Source: Modicisalibacter xianhensis (GTDB taxonomy: Bacteria > Pseudomonadota > Gammaproteobacteria > Pseudomonadales > Halomonadaceae). Taken from it: a DNA stretch of 64,000 nt. The stretch lies in assembly GCF_900113605.1 (NCBI RefSeq), contig NZ_FOPY01000004.1, forward strand, positions 124,001 through 188,000, written 5' to 3'. This document shows positions 4,537-13,566 of the stretch, piece by piece (within the stretch, counting starts at the first letter, position 1; each line of letters starts with the position of its first letter). A program made the position numbers and the translations under genes. Under the pieces are notes generated by a model. The model was not told where the DNA came from. It saw only the letters and a program-made list of their open reading frames with translations, and did not search any database.

Positions 4537-4767
4537 ATGGCTATCAGTATCAAGCTATCCGATGAACTCGTTGATCAGGCACGCCGCTATGGTCACGTTT
4601 TCCAGCGTTCGACACCCAAGCAAATCGAGTACTGGTCTCGTATCGGCCAGATTGCCGAGGAAAATCCCGACCTACCCTACGCCTTCATCAAGGAAATACT
4701 GCTGGCTGATCAGGAAGCCAAGGACGGCCAGCTCACCTCTTACGAGTTCGGCCCCAACGAACGATGA
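4537..4767 (+). CDS. ParD-like type II antitoxin
   Basis: The 76-residue protein begins MAISIKLSDELVDQARRYGHVFQRSTPKQIEYWSRIGQ (split: ISIKLSDELVDQAR, then RSTPKQIEYWSRIG). This is the ribbon-helix-helix pattern of the ParD-like antitoxin family that pairs with RelE/ParE toxins. The N-terminal beta strand and two helices would bind DNA and repress the operon, while the acidic C-terminal tail would neutralise the toxin. A GAGGA ribosome-binding site precedes the ATG. Its stop overlaps the next start in ATGA, indicating translational coupling with the toxin. Confidence 0.85.
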   Translation: MAISIKLSDELVDQARRYGHVFQRSTPKQIEYWSRIGQIAEENPDLPYAFIKEILLADQEAKDGQLTSYEFGPNER

Positions 4768-5036
4768 AGGTGATGCAAACGCCCCGTTTCCAGCGGGCCG
4801 CCAAGAAACTCAAGCGTAGTCAAAAAGCGGACCTGGATAACGCGATTCGCTGCCTGATCGAAGAGCCTGACATTGGCGACGTCAAGGTAGGCGACCTGGC
4901 AGGCATTCGTGTCTACAAATTCAAGATGACCGGCCAGCTCACCTTGTTAGCCTATCGCTACGACGATGGCGAACTTACCTTGACGCTGCTCATGTTAGGC
5001 AGCCATGAAAACTTCTATCGCGACCTAAAACGCTAA
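4764..5036 (+). CDS. RelE/ParE-family toxin
   Basis: This is a 90-residue basic protein with the RelE/ParE layout. An N-terminal helix pair (RFQRAAKKLKRSQKADLDNAI) is followed by beta strands GDLAGIRVYKFKM, LTLLAYRYDD and LTLLMLGSHENFYRDLKR. The GIRVYKF and the terminal GSHENFYRDLK stretches are typical of RelE-type toxins that bind the ribosome or, for ParE, DNA gyrase; the target is not decidable here. It overlaps the antitoxin by four bases (ATGA) and its stop overlaps the asparaginase start by one base (TAATG). Confidence 0.85.
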   Translation: MKVMQTPRFQRAAKKLKRSQKADLDNAIRCLIEEPDIGDVKVGDLAGIRVYKFKMTGQLTLLAYRYDDGELTLTLLMLGSHENFYRDLKR

Positions 5037-7503: not shown

Positions 7504-7854
7504 ATGCTGGCTAGCATTGATCACGTCACCGCCAAGTGTCTTCTTGACGACGTCCTCCCCAAGCTCAAAGCCGTGGAAGATCTCGCCTACAATACACTCT
7601 CTCAGCTCATCGCTCAGGCAACGAGCGATGAGGTTCGACAACGTCACGAACTGCTCCAGCAGGAATTCGAGCTGGAAATCACCATGATCCGCATGAACCT
7701 GGACCACCTGACGACCCGCTATGCCAAGGAGCTACACGATGCAGCAACCGGCAGCGGTAACGTATCGCTGACGCTGGATCGCCATGAGCAACTTGCCATT
7801 CACAGCGCCAACACGCTTTATGATCGCGCCCGCGCCATACAAACCGGTGGATAA
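7504..7854 (+). CDS. Hypothetical protein downstream of flagellin, 116 aa
   Basis: The family is not recognised. The protein is almost entirely helical (LPKLKAVEDLAYNTLSQLIAQ; RHELLQQEFELEITMIRMNLDHL), acidic and soluble, resembling in size and character a small export chaperone or coiled-coil partner. An AGGAAG ribosome-binding site lies 8 bases upstream of the ATG. It stands between fliC and another small helical gene, with only three bases between the two. A flagellar role is suggested by position only. Confidence 0.65.
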   Translation: MLASIDHVTAKCLLDDVLPKLKAVEDLAYNTLSQLIAQATSDEVRQRHELLQQEFELEITMIRMNLDHLTTRYAKELHDAATGSGNVSLTLDRHEQLAIHSANTLYDRARAIQTGG

Positions 7855-7857
7855 TAA

Positions 7858-8082
7858 ATGAGCGAGCCAGCAAAAGCCGATCACACGCTCGATGTAGAGG
7901 ATTGTCAGCATATCCTCAGCGAACTGGAGTCGGTAATCAGCGATGCCAAGGCGCTGATGGCGCGTTTCGAGGCTGCCGGCTTCGACGAGTCCCAGCCTGA
8001 TGACTACTTCGCCTTGCACGAGTTGTATACCCGTTCGGTCAAGGAGCAGCAGAAATACACGCAAATTCTGCTCGACCTGTAA
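7858..8082 (+). CDS. Hypothetical protein, 74 aa
   Basis: This is a small acidic helical protein (DVEDCQHILSELESVISDAKALMARFEAAG, then DDYFALHELYTRSVKEQQKYTQILLDL) without signal peptide or membrane span. It begins three bases after the stop of the preceding small gene and is almost certainly co-transcribed and coupled with it. I cannot name a family. The two-helix layout with leucines every three to four residues would suit a flagellar chaperone or an adaptor, but that is only inference. Confidence 0.6.
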   Translation: MSEPAKADHTLDVEDCQHILSELESVISDAKALMARFEAAGFDESQPDDYFALHELYTRSVKEQQKYTQILLDL

Positions 8083-8100: not shown

Positions 8101-8127
8101 TCAAGTTTCCCCTCGCCCCGCCGATAG
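8101..8127 (+). promoter_or_regulatory. Sigma-28 promoter of lipoprotein-flgO pair
   Basis: TCAA, 15 bases, GCCGATAG. The spacing is exact and the -10 core is perfect; the -35 has C in place of A at its second base, as also in the flgK promoter. It lies 47 bases upstream of the lipoprotein start. Confidence 0.65.
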
Positions 8128-8173: not shown

Positions 8174-8857
8174 ATGCCCTACCGGCTGTTCACTCGACCT
8201 CGTAGTCTTCTGGCCTTGCTTGGTGCCGCCCTGCTTGGCGGCTGTGGTTTCAACAACACCCAGGTCCCCATGGCAGCGACCTACCCCTACAGCGAACAGC
8301 GCAAGATGCAGGCGGCGCATCACTGGGAGGTGCTGGCCGCCTACGAAGCCGAGCGGATCACGCGCAGTGCGCGCCTCGAGGGGCAAGCCCTGTTCGTATC
8401 GCAGGCCAGTCAGGACTCGCCCTTTGCCAAAGGGTTCAGTTCGATGCTCGTCACGCATTTGGTCGCCAACGGCGCCCTGGTGCGTACCGACCCGATCGGT
8501 GCCGCCCAGGTCGATTACCAGGTGCAGGTCGTGGAACACGACGATCGCGATTTCATCCGTCCGCCCCGTGGCGCGTTGACGACGATCGCCACCGGCATTG
8601 CCGTGGCAACCTGGCCGATCAATCACTGGAGCGAACCGGCGTTGGCCCTGGTGCCGGCAGCCGCCGGTGTCGATGCCTTCAGTGGTGGCTGGGCAGGTGT
8701 GACCGACAAGGAGGTGATCATCACCACCCAGGTCATCGATGTAAATCGCGTGCTCTATTCTTCGTCCAACGTGTACTACATCAATCCGGAAGACGAAGCG
8801 CATTACCGCGACGAATCAACGTTCCTCAAGACGATTCCCATAACCAATCGCTGGTAA
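8174..8857 (+). CDS. Putative outer-membrane lipoprotein, 227 aa
   Basis: The N-terminus has a basic start, a hydrophobic run and the lipobox LLGGC with the acylated cysteine at residue 24. The next residue is glycine, so sorting to the outer membrane is expected. The body is mixed alpha/beta and contains repeated VEH/ITTQV-type strands; I do not recognise a family. It is 16 bases upstream of a FlgO-family gene and downstream of a sigma-28-type promoter, so a role near the flagellar outer-membrane rings, comparable in place to FlgP or FlgT of Vibrio, is plausible but unproven. Confidence 0.75.
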   Translation: MPYRLFTRPRSLLALLGAALLGGCGFNNTQVPMAATYPYSEQRKMQAAHHWEVLAAYEAERITRSARLEGQALFVSQASQDSPFAKGFSSMLVTHLVANGALVRTDPIGAAQVDYQVQVVEHDDRDFIRPPRGALTTIATGIAVATWPINHWSEPALALVPAAAGVDAFSGGWAGVTDKEVIITTQVIDVNRVLYSSSNVYYINPEDEAHYRDESTFLKTIPITNRW

Positions 8858-8873: not shown

Positions 8874-9437
8874 ATGACGACCCCGCTTTGGCGCAACCGT
8901 TTTCTGGCCTTGGCCCTGTCCGGCATGCTGGGGCTCTCCCTGGCAGGCTGTGCCACACACGATCCCGCGCCCCTGATCGTCAAGACACCGGAAACGCACA
9001 TGATCGAACTGGTCGAGGAAGCCTCAGCCACTCTGCTGGCGAATACACGGGGTATATCACCTGACAAGCCGATCATCGCAGCCACGTTCGTCGATATCGA
9101 CGACCTGCAGCGCTCTTCGACGCTGGGCCGTACCCTGTCGGAACTCTTTACATCGGGCCTTGTTCAGGCTGGCCTGACCGTCATCGAAGTGAAGATGCGC
9201 AACAGTCTATTCATCGAACAGAACACCGGTGAGCTGATGCTCTCCCGTGATGTGCAACGTCTTTCCCTGGCGCATGATGCCCAGGCCGTGCTCATCGGCA
9301 CCTATGCGCAAGCGGAGCGTTCCGCCTACGTGAACGTACGCATCGTGCGAGCGCGGGATAACGTCATCCTTGGCGCCACCTCGATCAGGTTGCCGCTGGA
9401 CCGGGACATTCGTGCGCTACTGCCTACCGCCTGGTAA
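8874..9437 (+). CDS. flgO: FlgO-family outer-membrane lipoprotein
   Basis: The 187-residue protein has a signal peptide ending in the lipobox SLAGC (Cys26). The rest matches the FlgO domain: PIIAATFVDIDDLQRSSTLGR, LSELFTSGLVQAGLTVIEVK, then RDVQRLSLAHDAQAVLIGTY and VRIVRARDNVILGATSIRLPL (each quoted in part). In Vibrio, FlgO is an outer-membrane protein needed for stable flagella and motility. It is paired with the preceding lipoprotein gene and shares its promoter. The symbol is used for the family; function in this organism is by analogy. Confidence 0.8.
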   Translation: MTTPLWRNRFLALALSGMLGLSLAGCATHDPAPLIVKTPETHMIELVEEASATLLANTRGISPDKPIIAATFVDIDDLQRSSTLGRTLSELFTSGLVQAGLTVIEVKMRNSLFIEQNTGELMLSRDVQRLSLAHDAQAVLIGTYAQAERSAYVNVRIVRARDNVILGATSIRLPLDRDIRALLPTAW

Positions 9438-9447
9438 CCAGGCCCGC

Positions 9448-9474
9448 TAAATTTTGCGGCACGCTTGCCGATAA
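9448..9474 (+). promoter_or_regulatory. Perfect sigma-28 promoter before nuclease-fold gene and flaG
   Basis: TAAA, exactly 15 bases, GCCGATAA: an unbroken match to the FliA consensus. It starts 8 bases after the stop of flgO and lies about 85 bases upstream of the next ATG. Confidence 0.88.
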
Positions 9475-9494
9475 CGATGGTTAAGACAGGGTCC

Positions 9495-9525
9495 TGCCTG
9501 CGATGCCGCTGAGGCAGCGCAGGCA
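9495..9525 (+). other. Hairpin in the 5' leader of the nuclease-fold gene
   Basis: TGCCTGCG pairs with CGCAGGCA, and inside it TGCC pairs with GGCA around GCTGA, giving a 12-bp stem with one opposed A-G. It falls in the transcript about 15 bases after the expected sigma-28 start site and 35 bases before the ATG. There is no T-run, so it is not an intrinsic terminator. Confidence 0.55.
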
Positions 9526-9559
9526 TGTTCGATAACGACAACAACTCACGGTACGCACA

Positions 9560-10042
9560 ATGACACTTTCCCAGGCGCTGGAGGCATCGGCTCACCATCC
9601 GTTCACCGGGGCACTCGACACTGCCGTGCACTCGCTCATCGACAGGGACCGCTACCTGCTCGGGAACGCCAGGGTCAACGAGCGAGCCCTGTCCTTTCGC
9701 CTTGCGCTTCACCTGCAGGCGCAACTGCCCGACTGGGATGTGGATTGCGAATACAACGGCTGGAATACGCCGTGTCATGCCATGAAGCATGTAGTGACGC
9801 CCACGCATGCCGCAGCCACCGAGGCGCGCACTATTTACCCCGATATCGCCGTGCATCGGCGCGACACCGGGCACAACCTGGCGCTGATCGAGGTCGTCAA
9901 GAGCGAAAGCCGTTTTGGCCACCATCAGGACGTGAAAAAACTGAAGGCCTACAAGGCCCAGATGGGTTACGAATTTGCCCTGCTGCTGACACTCGGCGTC
10001 GGAGTCGATGCCGGCACGCATCATGTTGAAGTCATCGTGTGA
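9560..10042 (+). CDS. Hypothetical protein with PD-(D/E)XK nuclease-like fold
   Basis: This 160-residue soluble protein has an ordered set of marks of the PD-(D/E)XK phosphodiesterase fold: a helix with E41 (VNERALSFRLALHLQ), strand PDIAVHRR with P94-D95, then NLALIEVVKSES with E111 and K114, and a helix DVKKLKAYK. The lysine is one residue later than in the canonical E-x-K (here E-V-V-K), so catalysis is uncertain. It sits between flgO and flaG behind a perfect sigma-28 promoter and ends 51 bases before flaG. No modification or defence partner is present. Function is unknown. Confidence 0.6.
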   Translation: MTLSQALEASAHHPFTGALDTAVHSLIDRDRYLLGNARVNERALSFRLALHLQAQLPDWDVDCEYNGWNTPCHAMKHVVTPTHAAATEARTIYPDIAVHRRDTGHNLALIEVVKSESRFGHHQDVKKLKAYKAQMGYEFALLLTLGVGVDAGTHHVEVIV

Positions 10043-10093
10043 GCGCAGGCGCTCGAACGGTTTCACCTTCCACGCAAGCCATGTAGGGATCGT

Positions 10094-10501
10094 ATGACGT
10101 CGTCACTCATCGAGGCTGCCGCCATGTCAGTCACACCAGACACCTCGGCCACGCCATCCTCCGTCGCGAGACTGACGCCCCACCAGCGTTTGGAAAGCGT
10201 ACTCGCTCACTTGCCAGTTCCGTCGGGCAGTCTCGCTACCGAGCAGGTCAATGCCAGCGACGCTGCCGCGGAATCCTATTATCGTCAACTGCTCGAGCCG
10301 GTGCAGCGAATCAACGACGTCATGCGCAACTACGGCGTCGAGTTTCAGTTGCATGAATTTTCGCAGGGCCAGCGCGTGGTGACACGTATCGTCGACCGTG
10401 ACAGTGGCGAGATTATCAGGCAGATTCCCAGCGAAGAAGTGCTGCGGATTGCCGAATCGCTCGAGCAGATGCAGGGGCGATTGATACAGTTGAAAGCATG
10501 A
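10094..10501 (+). CDS. flaG: Flagellar protein FlaG
   Basis: This is a 135-residue FlaG-family protein. A variable N-terminus is followed by a helix (YYRQLLEPVQRINDVMRNYG) and the conserved FlaG core, FQLHEFSQGQRVVTRIVDRDSGEIIRQIPSEEVLRIAESL (shown here in outline: VVTRIVDRDSGEIIRQIPSE). FlaG proteins affect filament length in Pseudomonas and related bacteria. It is probably transcribed with the preceding nuclease-fold gene from the sigma-28 promoter. An AGGGA ribosome-binding site precedes the ATG at 10094; an internal ATG at 10124 is less likely. Confidence 0.92.
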   Translation: MTSSLIEAAAMSVTPDTSATPSSVARLTPHQRLESVLAHLPVPSGSLATEQVNASDAAAESYYRQLLEPVQRINDVMRNYGVEFQLHEFSQGQRVVTRIVDRDSGEIIRQIPSEEVLRIAESLEQMQGRLIQLKA

Positions 10502-10533: not shown

Positions 10534-10560
10534 TACGGTTTTTCCGCAAGTTGCCGATAA
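10534..10560 (+). promoter_or_regulatory. Possible sigma-28 promoter of GGDEF-EAL gene
   Basis: A perfect -10 GCCGATAA is preceded at 15 bases by TACG, a degraded -35. It lies 33 bases after the flaG stop and about 195 bases upstream of the GGDEF-EAL start. The weak -35 leaves this uncertain. Confidence 0.45.
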
Positions 10561-10755: not shown

Positions 10756-13566
10756 ATGGAAGACACCAGACCGGGCAAACCAATGACACAACAGGACACG
10801 CCACCTAACAGCAGCGCTCGGCACCGGGCGGGTGTTCAGGACAGCCTGCGTCTTGCTGCACTGCAGTCGACCGGCCTGCTCGACACACCGCAAGAGTCGC
10901 GCTTCGATGCATTGACGCAGTTGGCTTGCCGGCTTTTCGACGTGCCTATCGCCCTGGTCAGCCTGGTCGATAACAAACGGCAGTGGTTCAAGTCCCGTTG
11001 CGGCCTGGACGCCGAAGAAACGCCCGTGGAACAGGCCTTCTGCGCGCACGCCATCGAGTCGAACGTCTTGCTGGTAATCAACGACGCCACGCAAGACGAA
11101 CGCTTCCAGGACAACCCGCTGGTTACCGGCCCGCCGCATATCCGTTTTTATGCGGGTGCGCCCATCTATGGGCGCAGCAACATGCCGCTCGGCACGTTCT
11201 GCATCATCAGCGATACGCCCCGTGAACTCAGCGACAGCGAAACCGAGACACTACGCAGCCTGGCCCGCCTGGTGACCATCGAGATCGCCCATGGCATGGA
11301 GTTTCCCCTCCTGGCGCCCTCATCGCAGGGCGAAGCTGCCTTGCGCCCGACGGTCGAGGCGTTGATCAACCGAGCGGAACAGCGCCATCTCGCTGGCACG
11401 CCGCCGCGCCTGGCACTGCTCGAGTTGCTCGACGACCTGCTGCGCCTGCTGCAATGCCAGTATGGGCTCGTCGGTGAGGTGCAGCACATCGAAACGACGC
11501 CAATACTGGAGATCATTGGTATGTCGTTTGGCGATGTCACCGAAAAGATGCATGAGTTCTTCATGCACGGCAGACGCCGCTTGAGTCTGCCCCTCATCGA
11601 TGCCATCACTGGCGGGCGTTTCGCGAAATCGGAGATCCAGGTGTTCGATGGCTGCGATTTTGCCGCCATCATGGAGAAGCTGCCGGCCAATCATCCCCCG
11701 CTCGATAATGCGCTGATGATCCCCTTCGTCTCGGGTGACAGAAACATTGGCGTGATGCTGCTAGCCAACCGCGATGGAGGATTCGACAGTATCAGCATGC
11801 AGTGGCTGCTCAAGCCGCTGATGGATGTGGGCAGCCGATTGTTGCTGTCGCTGCAGGAAGAACAGGAAAAGGCGGCGCTGCACTCCACCCTCGAGGAGTT
11901 TCGCGCCACGCTGGATGCCACACTGGACCTGATCCTGATCTTCGACGAGCAGACGCAGCGTTTCACCTACTGCAATCAGGGCGCGCTGGAGCACTTGGGA
12001 TACACTCATCAGGAGTTTCAGGCCATGGCGCCGGCAGAGCTGCTGGATGCGCATAATGCCGAGGGGCTGACCAGCCGCCTGGCTCCGCTCAAGCAACACA
12101 TGCGCTCCATCAGGCTGACCACCACCCTGCGTTGCCGCAATGGCGATACCCTGCCCGTGCAAGCCGTGGTCCAGCGCATCGAGCACCCGGGCTCGGGCAG
12201 AACCAACTATGTGATTGTCGCCCGGGACCTGCGCGAATCGCTCAAGGCCCAGCAGGAAATCGACTGGATCACCTACCACGACCCCTTGACGCGTCAGCTC
12301 AACCGAGCGGGATTTCTGCACTCGCTTGCGGACAACACGCCACATGCCAACGACCTGGCGCCGCTTCAAATGGTGCTGGTGTGCGGCATCGACCGCTTCA
12401 AGCGGCTCAACGATGCACATGGCACGGCCGTAGCCGACAAGGTACTGTGCGAGCTGGCCGAGTCCCTGGCCAGTGCGCTGGCCAGTTATCCCAATGCCCT
12501 GCTCGGGCGCTTGGGCGGTGATGAGTTCGCCATCAGCGTCAACCTGCCGCACGACAGCAACGCGGTGCATCTCGCCGACTGGCTGCGCCAGCAGGTCGAA
12601 CAGTATCGGTTCTCGATAGTCGATGGACTGCAACTGACAGTCAGCGCCGGACTCGCCACCTCCACGGGCGGCAAGGTGCAACCCGAGGAACTGCTGCGCC
12701 GCGCCAATGCCGCACTGGTGCGGGCCAAACGGCAAGGGCGCAACCGGGTACGCCAGTACATCAGCGGCATGCTCGACGAGGCCAGCCGACACCAGACGAT
12801 CGAACGGCGCCTGTCGGGGGCCTTTGCACGCGGCGACTTCCACCTGTTCTTCCAGCCGCAATGGCTATTGTCGGACCTGTCCGCGCCCATCGGTGCGGAG
12901 GTTCTGCTGCGCTGGCGGGATGCCGAGCTGGATTCCATCGGCCCCGATGTGTTCATTCCGATTCTCGAGGAAAGCGGCATGATGGTCGAGGTCGGGCGCT
13001 GGATCATCGACCAGGCGCTGGATCACCTGAAGGCCAACCGGGAGCGCCTGCCGGAGGACTTTTTCCTCAGTGTCAATGTCAGTGCCATCCAGTTGATGGA
13101 CGATGCACACTTGGCGGACCATGTCATCGAGGCCCTGCAGCGTCGCAACCTGCCGACGAGCGTGCTCGAGCTGGAAATCACCGAGACGGCGCTGATCCAG
13201 TCGCCCCACTGGGTCGGTCAGCAACTGCAAGCACTGTACGAACAGGGTATCTGTATCGCCCTGGACGATTTCGGCACCGGCTTCTCGTCGCTCTCGCACC
13301 TGAAGCAATTCCCGTTCGATACGGTCAAGATCGACAAGTCGTTCATCGCCGGCCTGCCCGATTCCGCTGAAGACCGCGCCATCATCGAGTCGCTGCTGAC
13401 GCTTTGCCGTGGTTTCGGCCGCGATGTCTGCGCCGAAGGCATCGAAACCCATGCCCAGCTCGATTTCCTGCGCCGCCTCAACTGCGCTCGCGCCCAAGGC
13501 TACCTGCTCGCCCGCCCCAGCCCCGAGCTTCCCTACAATCTGCCGGTAAAAGAACTCGACCTTTGA
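10756..13566 (+). CDS. GAF-GAF-PAS-GGDEF-EAL cyclic-di-GMP turnover protein
   Basis: This is a 936-residue cytoplasmic protein without membrane spans. It has an N-terminal GAF domain (residues 25-185, with VSLVDNKRQWFKSRCGL), a second GAF-like domain (about 205-370), a coiled coil, a PAS domain (about 380-500), GGDEF (about 510-670, intact GGDEF at 587-591) and EAL (about 680-930; signature E715-V-L-L-R, and DDFGTGFSSL at 836-845). Both catalytic signatures look intact, and no RxxD inhibitory site precedes GGDEF. It could make and degrade c-di-GMP, the second messenger that switches motility to attachment. Its place between flaG and fliE and the sigma-28-like site suggest flagellar control. 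ATG 10756 has AAGG upstream; 10783 is an alternative. Confidence 0.9.
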   Translation: MEDTRPGKPMTQQDTPPNSSARHRAGVQDSLRLAALQSTGLLDTPQESRFDALTQLACRLFDVPIALVSLVDNKRQWFKSRCGLDAEETPVEQAFCAHAIESNVLLVINDATQDERFQDNPLVTGPPHIRFYAGAPIYGRSNMPLGTFCIISDTPRELSDSETETLRSLARLVTIEIAHGMEFPLLAPSSQGEAALRPTVEALINRAEQRHLAGTPPRLALLELLDDLLRLLQCQYGLVGEVQHIETTPILEIIGMSFGDVTEKMHEFFMHGRRRLSLPLIDAITGGRFAKSEIQVFDGCDFAAIMEKLPANHPPLDNALMIPFVSGDRNIGVMLLANRDGGFDSISMQWLLKPLMDVGSRLLLSLQEEQEKAALHSTLEEFRATLDATLDLILIFDEQTQRFTYCNQGALEHLGYTHQEFQAMAPAELLDAHNAEGLTSRLAPLKQHMRSIRLTTTLRCRNGDTLPVQAVVQRIEHPGSGRTNYVIVARDLRESLKAQQEIDWITYHDPLTRQLNRAGFLHSLADNTPHANDLAPLQMVLVCGIDRFKRLNDAHGTAVADKVLCELAESLASALASYPNALLGRLGGDEFAISVNLPHDSNAVHLADWLRQQVEQYRFSIVDGLQLTVSAGLATSTGGKVQPEELLRRANAALVRAKRQGRNRVRQYISGMLDEASRHQTIERRLSGAFARGDFHLFFQPQWLLSDLSAPIGAEVLLRWRDAELDSIGPDVFIPILEESGMMVEVGRWIIDQALDHLKANRERLPEDFFLSVNVSAIQLMDDAHLADHVIEALQRRNLPTSVLELEITETALIQSPHWVGQQLQALYEQGICIALDDFGTGFSSLSHLKQFPFDTVKIDKSFIAGLPDSAEDRAIIESLLTLCRGFGRDVCAEGIETHAQLDFLRRLNCARAQGYLLARPSPELPYNLPVKELDL

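Follow-up and report, generated by a model that had tools for sequence, protein, structure and literature searches.

The window analyzed here, a stretch of 64,000 nucleotides from Modicisalibacter xianhensis (RefSeq assembly GCF_900113605.1, contig NZ_FOPY01000004.1, positions 124,001 to 188,000 of the forward strand), carries between flgO and flaG a gene whose product has a predicted nuclease fold. We consider it very likely that this nuclease-fold gene belongs to a flagellar clade of the PD-lambda-3_A family that has been domesticated, bears a sigma-28-type promoter box and has lost the lysine of the PD-(D/E)XK active site. Judged by its sequence, the protein is best read as a probably non-cleaving, nucleic-acid-binding member of the late flagellar regulon. 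For the whole explanation, domestication under sigma-28 plus a nucleic-acid-binding regulator, we estimate a probability of roughly 0.45. The first-pass annotation of the window had offered a late flagellar gene and a defense-type protein on a flagellar promoter as alternatives; the two merge here, as one clade of the PD-lambda-3_A family lies within the regulon. The gene, its box and its immediate neighbors are as follows.

9560-10042, forward strand: nuclease-fold gene, PD-lambda-3_A family, predicted PD-(D/E)XK fold, 160 amino acids, ATG start, in a flagellar-regulon setting
9448-9474, forward strand: exact sigma-28 (FliA) type box, TAAA-N15-GCCGATAA, from a motif scan of the window
8874-9437, forward strand: flgO, upstream neighbor of the nuclease-fold gene (Pfam FlgO, E=5.8e-38)
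10094-10501, forward strand: flaG, downstream neighbor of the nuclease-fold gene (Pfam FlaG, E=4.9e-16)

The position between flgO and flaG had been claimed from the sequence, and both neighbors are matched by Pfam. Expression from a perfect sigma-28 promoter together with flaG had been claimed as well. The box is indeed exact, and it is the only TAAA-N15-GCCGATAA in the window when spacings of 14-16 are scanned, where a first-order random model of the window expects 0.005 exact N15 boxes per 64 kb on both strands. Transcription of the nuclease-fold gene from this box is what we infer from the sequence. The start of flaG lies 51 nucleotides past the end of the nuclease-fold open reading frame, the gap contains no sigma-28 box even when two mismatches are allowed, and the two genes are perhaps co-transcribed; the expression part of the earlier claim, unlike the box, is a deduction from sequence.

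The box is shared throughout the flagellar clade, which comprises the window protein and those of 26 named Halomonadaceae loci (loci are labeled L, genomes G and genera g). A sigma-28-type box with at most two mismatches lies 75-135 nucleotides upstream of the start in 26 of the 26 named loci, ten of them exact, with the start of L074 assumed for this count. When random windows were drawn 200 times from the same strand of these loci, 0.62 of 26 had such a box on average and 3 of 26 at most; among 15 outgroup relatives, none has such a box upstream. In addition, tblastn with the flagellar proteins of the window finds a flagellar gene within the ~6 kb flank of 25 of the 26 loci; at the 26th, L069, the contig ends right after the nuclease-fold gene. 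At 17 of the 26 loci, no flagellar gene is closer than flaG. At eight others the nearest match is FliC, FlgL, FliE or FliD and the box is still present, with the reservation that some FlgL matches could be to flagellins, to which FlgL is related. The box thus persists despite different neighbors, and it is the regulon that is conserved and not one particular neighbor. The first-pass annotation had proposed to look at whether homologues keep the place beside flaG and had named scattered homologues without flagellar linkage as the sign against its idea; linkage at 25 and a box at all 26 loci are the opposite of such scatter. Chance as the reason for the flagellar location is ruled out by the box result. 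The same flagellar proteins found no flagellar gene at 17 other outgroup loci, a scan in which those of distant taxa could be missed. L060 (Halomonas sp. M20) has the nuclease-fold gene with its sigma-28-type box, but its flank yielded no flaG, and genome G110 yielded none either.

The residues that define the clade are encoded at these positions.

9680-9682, forward strand: codon for E41, helix glutamate, same residue in 42 of 42 aligned sequences
9839-9844, forward strand: codons for P94-D95, the PD motif, same in 42 of 42 aligned sequences
9890-9901, forward strand: codons for E111-V112-V113-K114; position 113 is the ExK lysine site of the outgroup
9923-9925, forward strand: codon for H122, a residue shared by all 27 clade members but not conserved elsewhere

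Translation bears out the residue numbers given earlier (E41, P94-D95, E111, K114 and the KLKAYK helix) and the reading of E111-V-V-K114 in place of the canonical E-x-K. A tree of 42 proteins was built with the two ExK columns excluded and without L039, which is short and has an internal stop, and L090, which an insertion sequence element interrupts. In it, a branch with support 99/95 separates the 27 flagellar-type sequences from the other 15, which form the outgroup. At position 113, the site of the ExK lysine two residues after the glutamate (E+2), all 15 outgroup sequences have lysine and none of the 27 clade members does; the clade has nine Q, six A, four L, three H, two V and one each of S, C and T. 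The following lysine, K114 (E+3), is missing in two clade members, L080 and L082. E41, D62, E64, P94, D95, H99, R101, E111 and K127 are identical in all 42 sequences; the metal-binding acids of the PD-(D/E)XK site, E41, D95 and E111, are therefore kept on both sides of the branch. Four further residues, W68, A108, H122 and V147, never vary within the clade but are not conserved elsewhere.

This pattern might be that of an active nuclease with a rewired site, in which the role of the lysine has passed to H122, K127 or K114 and the enzyme cuts flagellar mRNA or DNA as a late-stage switch. The acids and K127 in 42 of 42 sequences, and H122 in the clade, fit such an enzyme. PD-(D/E)XK enzymes with Gln or Glu replacing the lysine are also known, namely BglII and BamHI, and by analogy the nine glutamines at position 113 could be a substitute of the BglII kind. 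We nevertheless regard a rewired nuclease as unlikely: position 113 takes eight different residues in the clade, L080 and L082 lack the E+3 lysine, and K127, being common to active-type and flagellar members, marks no change. The same invariant residues bear on another possibility, a protein-binding accessory of flagellar assembly such as a chaperone, capping or export factor, which would use the old fold as a scaffold and touch no nucleic acid. The location beside or near flaG, fliC, fliE or fliD, varying by species, would suit this, but the identity of E41, D95, E111 and K127 in all 42 proteins would go unexplained, and we consider it very unlikely.

The protein is also maintained. Pairwise ratios of nonsynonymous to synonymous substitution rates (dN/dS) are 0.04-0.29 over 13 pairs (0.12 for the window against L058), which indicates purifying selection and rules out a pseudogene. 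A decaying defense remnant, carried by chance behind a flagellar promoter, could be read from the lost active-site lysine and from L074, the C. beijerinckii copy, in which the usual start of the family lacks a start codon and the match begins at residue 29. The dN/dS values already disfavor such a passenger, and so does a box at all 26 loci despite differing neighbors; its chances seem negligible to us.

The family assignment comes from the PADLOC model PD-Lambda-3_A, which matches the window protein at E=1.9e-35 (residues 12-151 of 160 against 13-151 of 159) and, at E up to 0.001, matches 27 of 27 rows of alignment A3, made of 25 flagellar-clade members and two outgroup sequences. No family above cut-off was found for the window protein in Pfam, NCBIfam or PHROGs, and no match to it in phage records; IMG/VR holds one relative, L086. 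A sequence-profile search of PDB chains gave no significant match (best E=0.74). According to AlphaFold2 modeling on A3 (predicted local distance difference test, pLDDT, 80.4; predicted template modeling score, pTM, 0.78), N-terminal helices are followed by three strands, a helix and two strands, with residues 1-9 and 79-89 below pLDDT 50. The model of an outgroup relative, L084, has a similar element order and is not independent because its alignment overlaps. In a Foldseek search against PDB, the top 15 of the 50 matches listed are all PD-(D/E)XK-type or tRNA-splicing nucleases, including BstEII, ACE1/Cas4-type proteins, the restriction-endonuclease-like 3ijm, Hjc, HincII and tRNA-splicing endonucleases; matches further down include unrelated proteins (e.g. 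Rep15) with template modeling (TM) scores around 0.5. Structure prediction and fold search, which the first-pass annotation had suggested as a check on its nuclease fold, thus yield a predicted restriction-endonuclease-like core, with weak PDB matches.

In the sampled family, the gene is confined to a few genera. Among 151 genomes, a single protein query matched 29 and the profile 27. Flagellar-type matches account for 24 of the 27 and belong to three genera: g1, the window's own (9 of 14 genomes), g2 (10) and g13 (5). The remaining three (G021, G032, G105) have an intact ExK. FlaG was found in 121 of these 151, which means that the majority of the flaG-bearing genomes sampled do without the nuclease-fold gene. 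Matches become scarce beyond the family, at 5 of 390 genomes in the order (two of them weak, with stops), 6 of 369 in the class with the PADLOC model and 12 of 398 in the phylum with the profile, each count including the window's own genome. Two weak matches not recovered by the profile search, L029 (E=7.3e-4) and L030 (E=8.0e-4, internal stop), were dropped, as was L032 (E=5.2e-4, internal stop), which gave no match on re-search. A scan of named genomes gave 28 loci: 26 Halomonadaceae, one Rhodoferax metagenome-assembled genome (MAG) and one Microbacteriaceae MAG. By the nuclease-fold protein, the closest named relative is Halomonas sp. McH1-25 (76% identity). The 5 of 14 genomes of the window's genus that lack the gene have flgO and flaG with nothing of it between them. 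In a tree of the neighboring GGDEF-EAL protein from eight genomes with and five without the gene, presence and absence form a single split with support 100/100; the ninth carrier, L064, whose flank shows no GGDEF-EAL gene, is not in this tree. Such a split is what a single gain or a single loss, with vertical inheritance afterwards, would give.

PD-lambda systems come from the screen in PMC9519451, whose main text, in the part available, does not name PD-lambda-3. Elsewhere, PD-lambda-3 is used as an abortive-infection control (PMC13190303) and listed with a PD(D/E)XK nuclease domain (PMC10952713). Several outgroup members have defense surroundings. On a plasmid (L087), the A component (PD-Lambda-3_A, E=2.3e-100) adjoins PD-Lambda-3_B. 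At L085 (4406-10804), a type I restriction operon has a PD-lambda-3_A-like gene between its methylase and specificity genes; at L119 (1261-5266), such a gene directly follows genes for a DRT8-like reverse transcriptase and an OLD/Gabija-like ATPase; at L118, one is near a DrmD-like helicase. On a Klebsiella plasmid (L090, 570-986), an ISEc52-family element comes after a PD-lambda-3_A-like gene and truncates it.

These relatives raise the possibility that the flagellar protein is an immune guard that kept its anti-phage role and is switched on with flagella, since flagellated cells meet flagellum-binding phages. The defense settings of L085, L119 and L118 speak for a guard, as does PD-lambda-3, the named relative, an abortive-infection system (PMC13190303). 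Against a guard, the B partner was found in 4 of 151 family genomes but in none of the 24 of flagellar type, the clade lacks the ExK lysine, and its loci carry flagellar genes. Defense genes usually show patchy turnover, and the single split in the window's genus resembles vertical inheritance instead. The missing partner and the single-split inheritance weaken the guard, which we judge distinctly unlikely.

We propose that, in the forebear of some of the Halomonadaceae, a PD-lambda-3_A nuclease-fold gene was placed under a sigma-28 promoter and domesticated into the late flagellar regulon. The protein would be made upon activation of sigma-28, whose activity generally follows completion of the hook-basal body. 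It would cut poorly or no longer, yet retain metal-ion and nucleic-acid binding at its old active site. By attaching to DNA or mRNA of flagellar genes, such as those for flagellin or neighboring late genes, it might then tune late flagellar output. A non-cleaving binder is favored because the metal-binding acids are fixed in 42 sequences while clade members show eight different residues at the lysine position; binding often survives when the ExK lysine is lost. Between the non-catalytic binder and the displaced lysine that the first-pass annotation had left side by side, the loss of the E+2 lysine in 27 of 27 favors the binder, and the displaced lysine it had in view, at E+3, is itself lost in two members. 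Regulation of late flagellar genes by binding is a tentative proposal, to which we give somewhat less than an even chance. More speculative is a new class of flagellar regulator, a disarmed PD-lambda-3_A nuclease re-tooled through H122 and W68 into a metal-dependent nucleic-acid-binding switch that would appear upon release of sigma-28 and then set the output of flagellin or late genes; this has perhaps one chance in three.

Several observations weigh against this explanation. H122, which is held constant within the clade alone, might be part of a rewired active site, and the retention of all acidic residues fits an active enzyme as well as a binder. The flagellar clade has one evolutionary origin, so that counts across it are not independent events. 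Nine relatives (L128-L136) from g501, one genus of large genomes, read E-[VI]-R-K, with arginine for the lysine; the group was seen in nine g501 genomes. These nine, together with L127 and L137, which have K at position 113, were found later and stand outside the 42-protein tree. With them, position 113 outside the clade is lysine in 17 and arginine in 9, and the clade still has no lysine. No flagellar genes were seen around the two g501 loci examined (L138, L139), and the arginine members mean that proteins other than the flagellar ones have lost the lysine too. The G032 member (L027; locus L050, 1444-1944), which has an intact E-I-K-K and falls outside the clade, lies directly behind fliC. 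A hairpin followed by T's separates it from fliC, and no sigma-28 box was found at this gene; flagellin loci may therefore attract such genes without domestication. Finally, the Foldseek matches to PDB are weak, with a best E of 8.3e-3 (none <1e-3) and query-normalized TM scores of 0.26-0.44 among the top 15. The fold call therefore rests on element order, motif residues and family, with Foldseek as support.

Other features surround the gene in the window. A GAF-PAS-GGDEF-EAL protein is encoded after flaG (10756-13566), a neighbor retained in several relatives, and a sigma-28-like box with two mismatches lies near it at 10534. A similar box with two mismatches (8101-8127) precedes flgO and an open reading frame (8174-8857) that is lipoprotein-like by eye. 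Two small genes (7504-7854 and 7858-8082; 116 and 74 amino acids), which have no Pfam family above cut-off, recur close to the nuclease-fold gene in many loci; that they are FliT-like export chaperones is perhaps so, and a guess. Further away, two short open reading frames side by side (4537-5036; 76 and 90 amino acids) suggest, by eye, a type II toxin-antitoxin pair with a ParD-like and a RelE-like member. In Chromohalobacter salexigens, salt and heat induce flagellar genes, according to an RNA-sequencing study (PMC6104435) whose passages on this induction make no mention of the nuclease-fold gene.

Defense genes are usually viewed as a fast-moving, mobile pool. Here, a PD-lambda-3_A member looks fixed in the regulon of a large machine, and the active-site change of its flagellar clade can be read across three halomonad groups. 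This adds an unnamed candidate to the late flagellar regulon and offers a testable case of recruitment from immunity to housekeeping, parallel to TldR in another nuclease superfamily. It also means that a PD-Lambda-3_A match alone is no evidence of a defense system.

Among known systems, late flagellar accessory genes under sigma-28, such as flaG, share the promoter type and location of the nuclease-fold gene. To our knowledge, no flagellar protein with a PD-(D/E)XK fold is known, and in the open-access literature, covered mostly as titles and abstract openings, no paper on a nuclease-fold flagellar gene was found. The PD-(D/E)XK superfamily shares with the window protein the predicted core fold, D95, E111 and the helix with E41, and differs in that the lysine of ExK is replaced in 27 of 27 flagellar-clade members. 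Component A of PD-lambda-3, an anti-phage abortive-infection system of E. coli, is of the same protein family. Unlike that system, the flagellar members have no B partner found and no ExK lysine; they have instead a sigma-28-type box, a flagellar locus and, in the window's genus, one presence/absence split. TldR, as described in PMC13418256, is a nuclease-dead TnpB-derived protein that controls flagellin; it too descends from a nuclease that lost its cutting activity, was domesticated and became linked to flagellar genes. It belongs to the TnpB superfamily, is RNA-guided, and its mechanism has been tested, whereas the window protein has a predicted PD-(D/E)XK fold and is known from sequence; the flagellin-linked TldR clade is prophage-encoded, unlike the nuclease-fold gene. 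By analogy, TldR is the nearest functional precedent for the protein proposed here.
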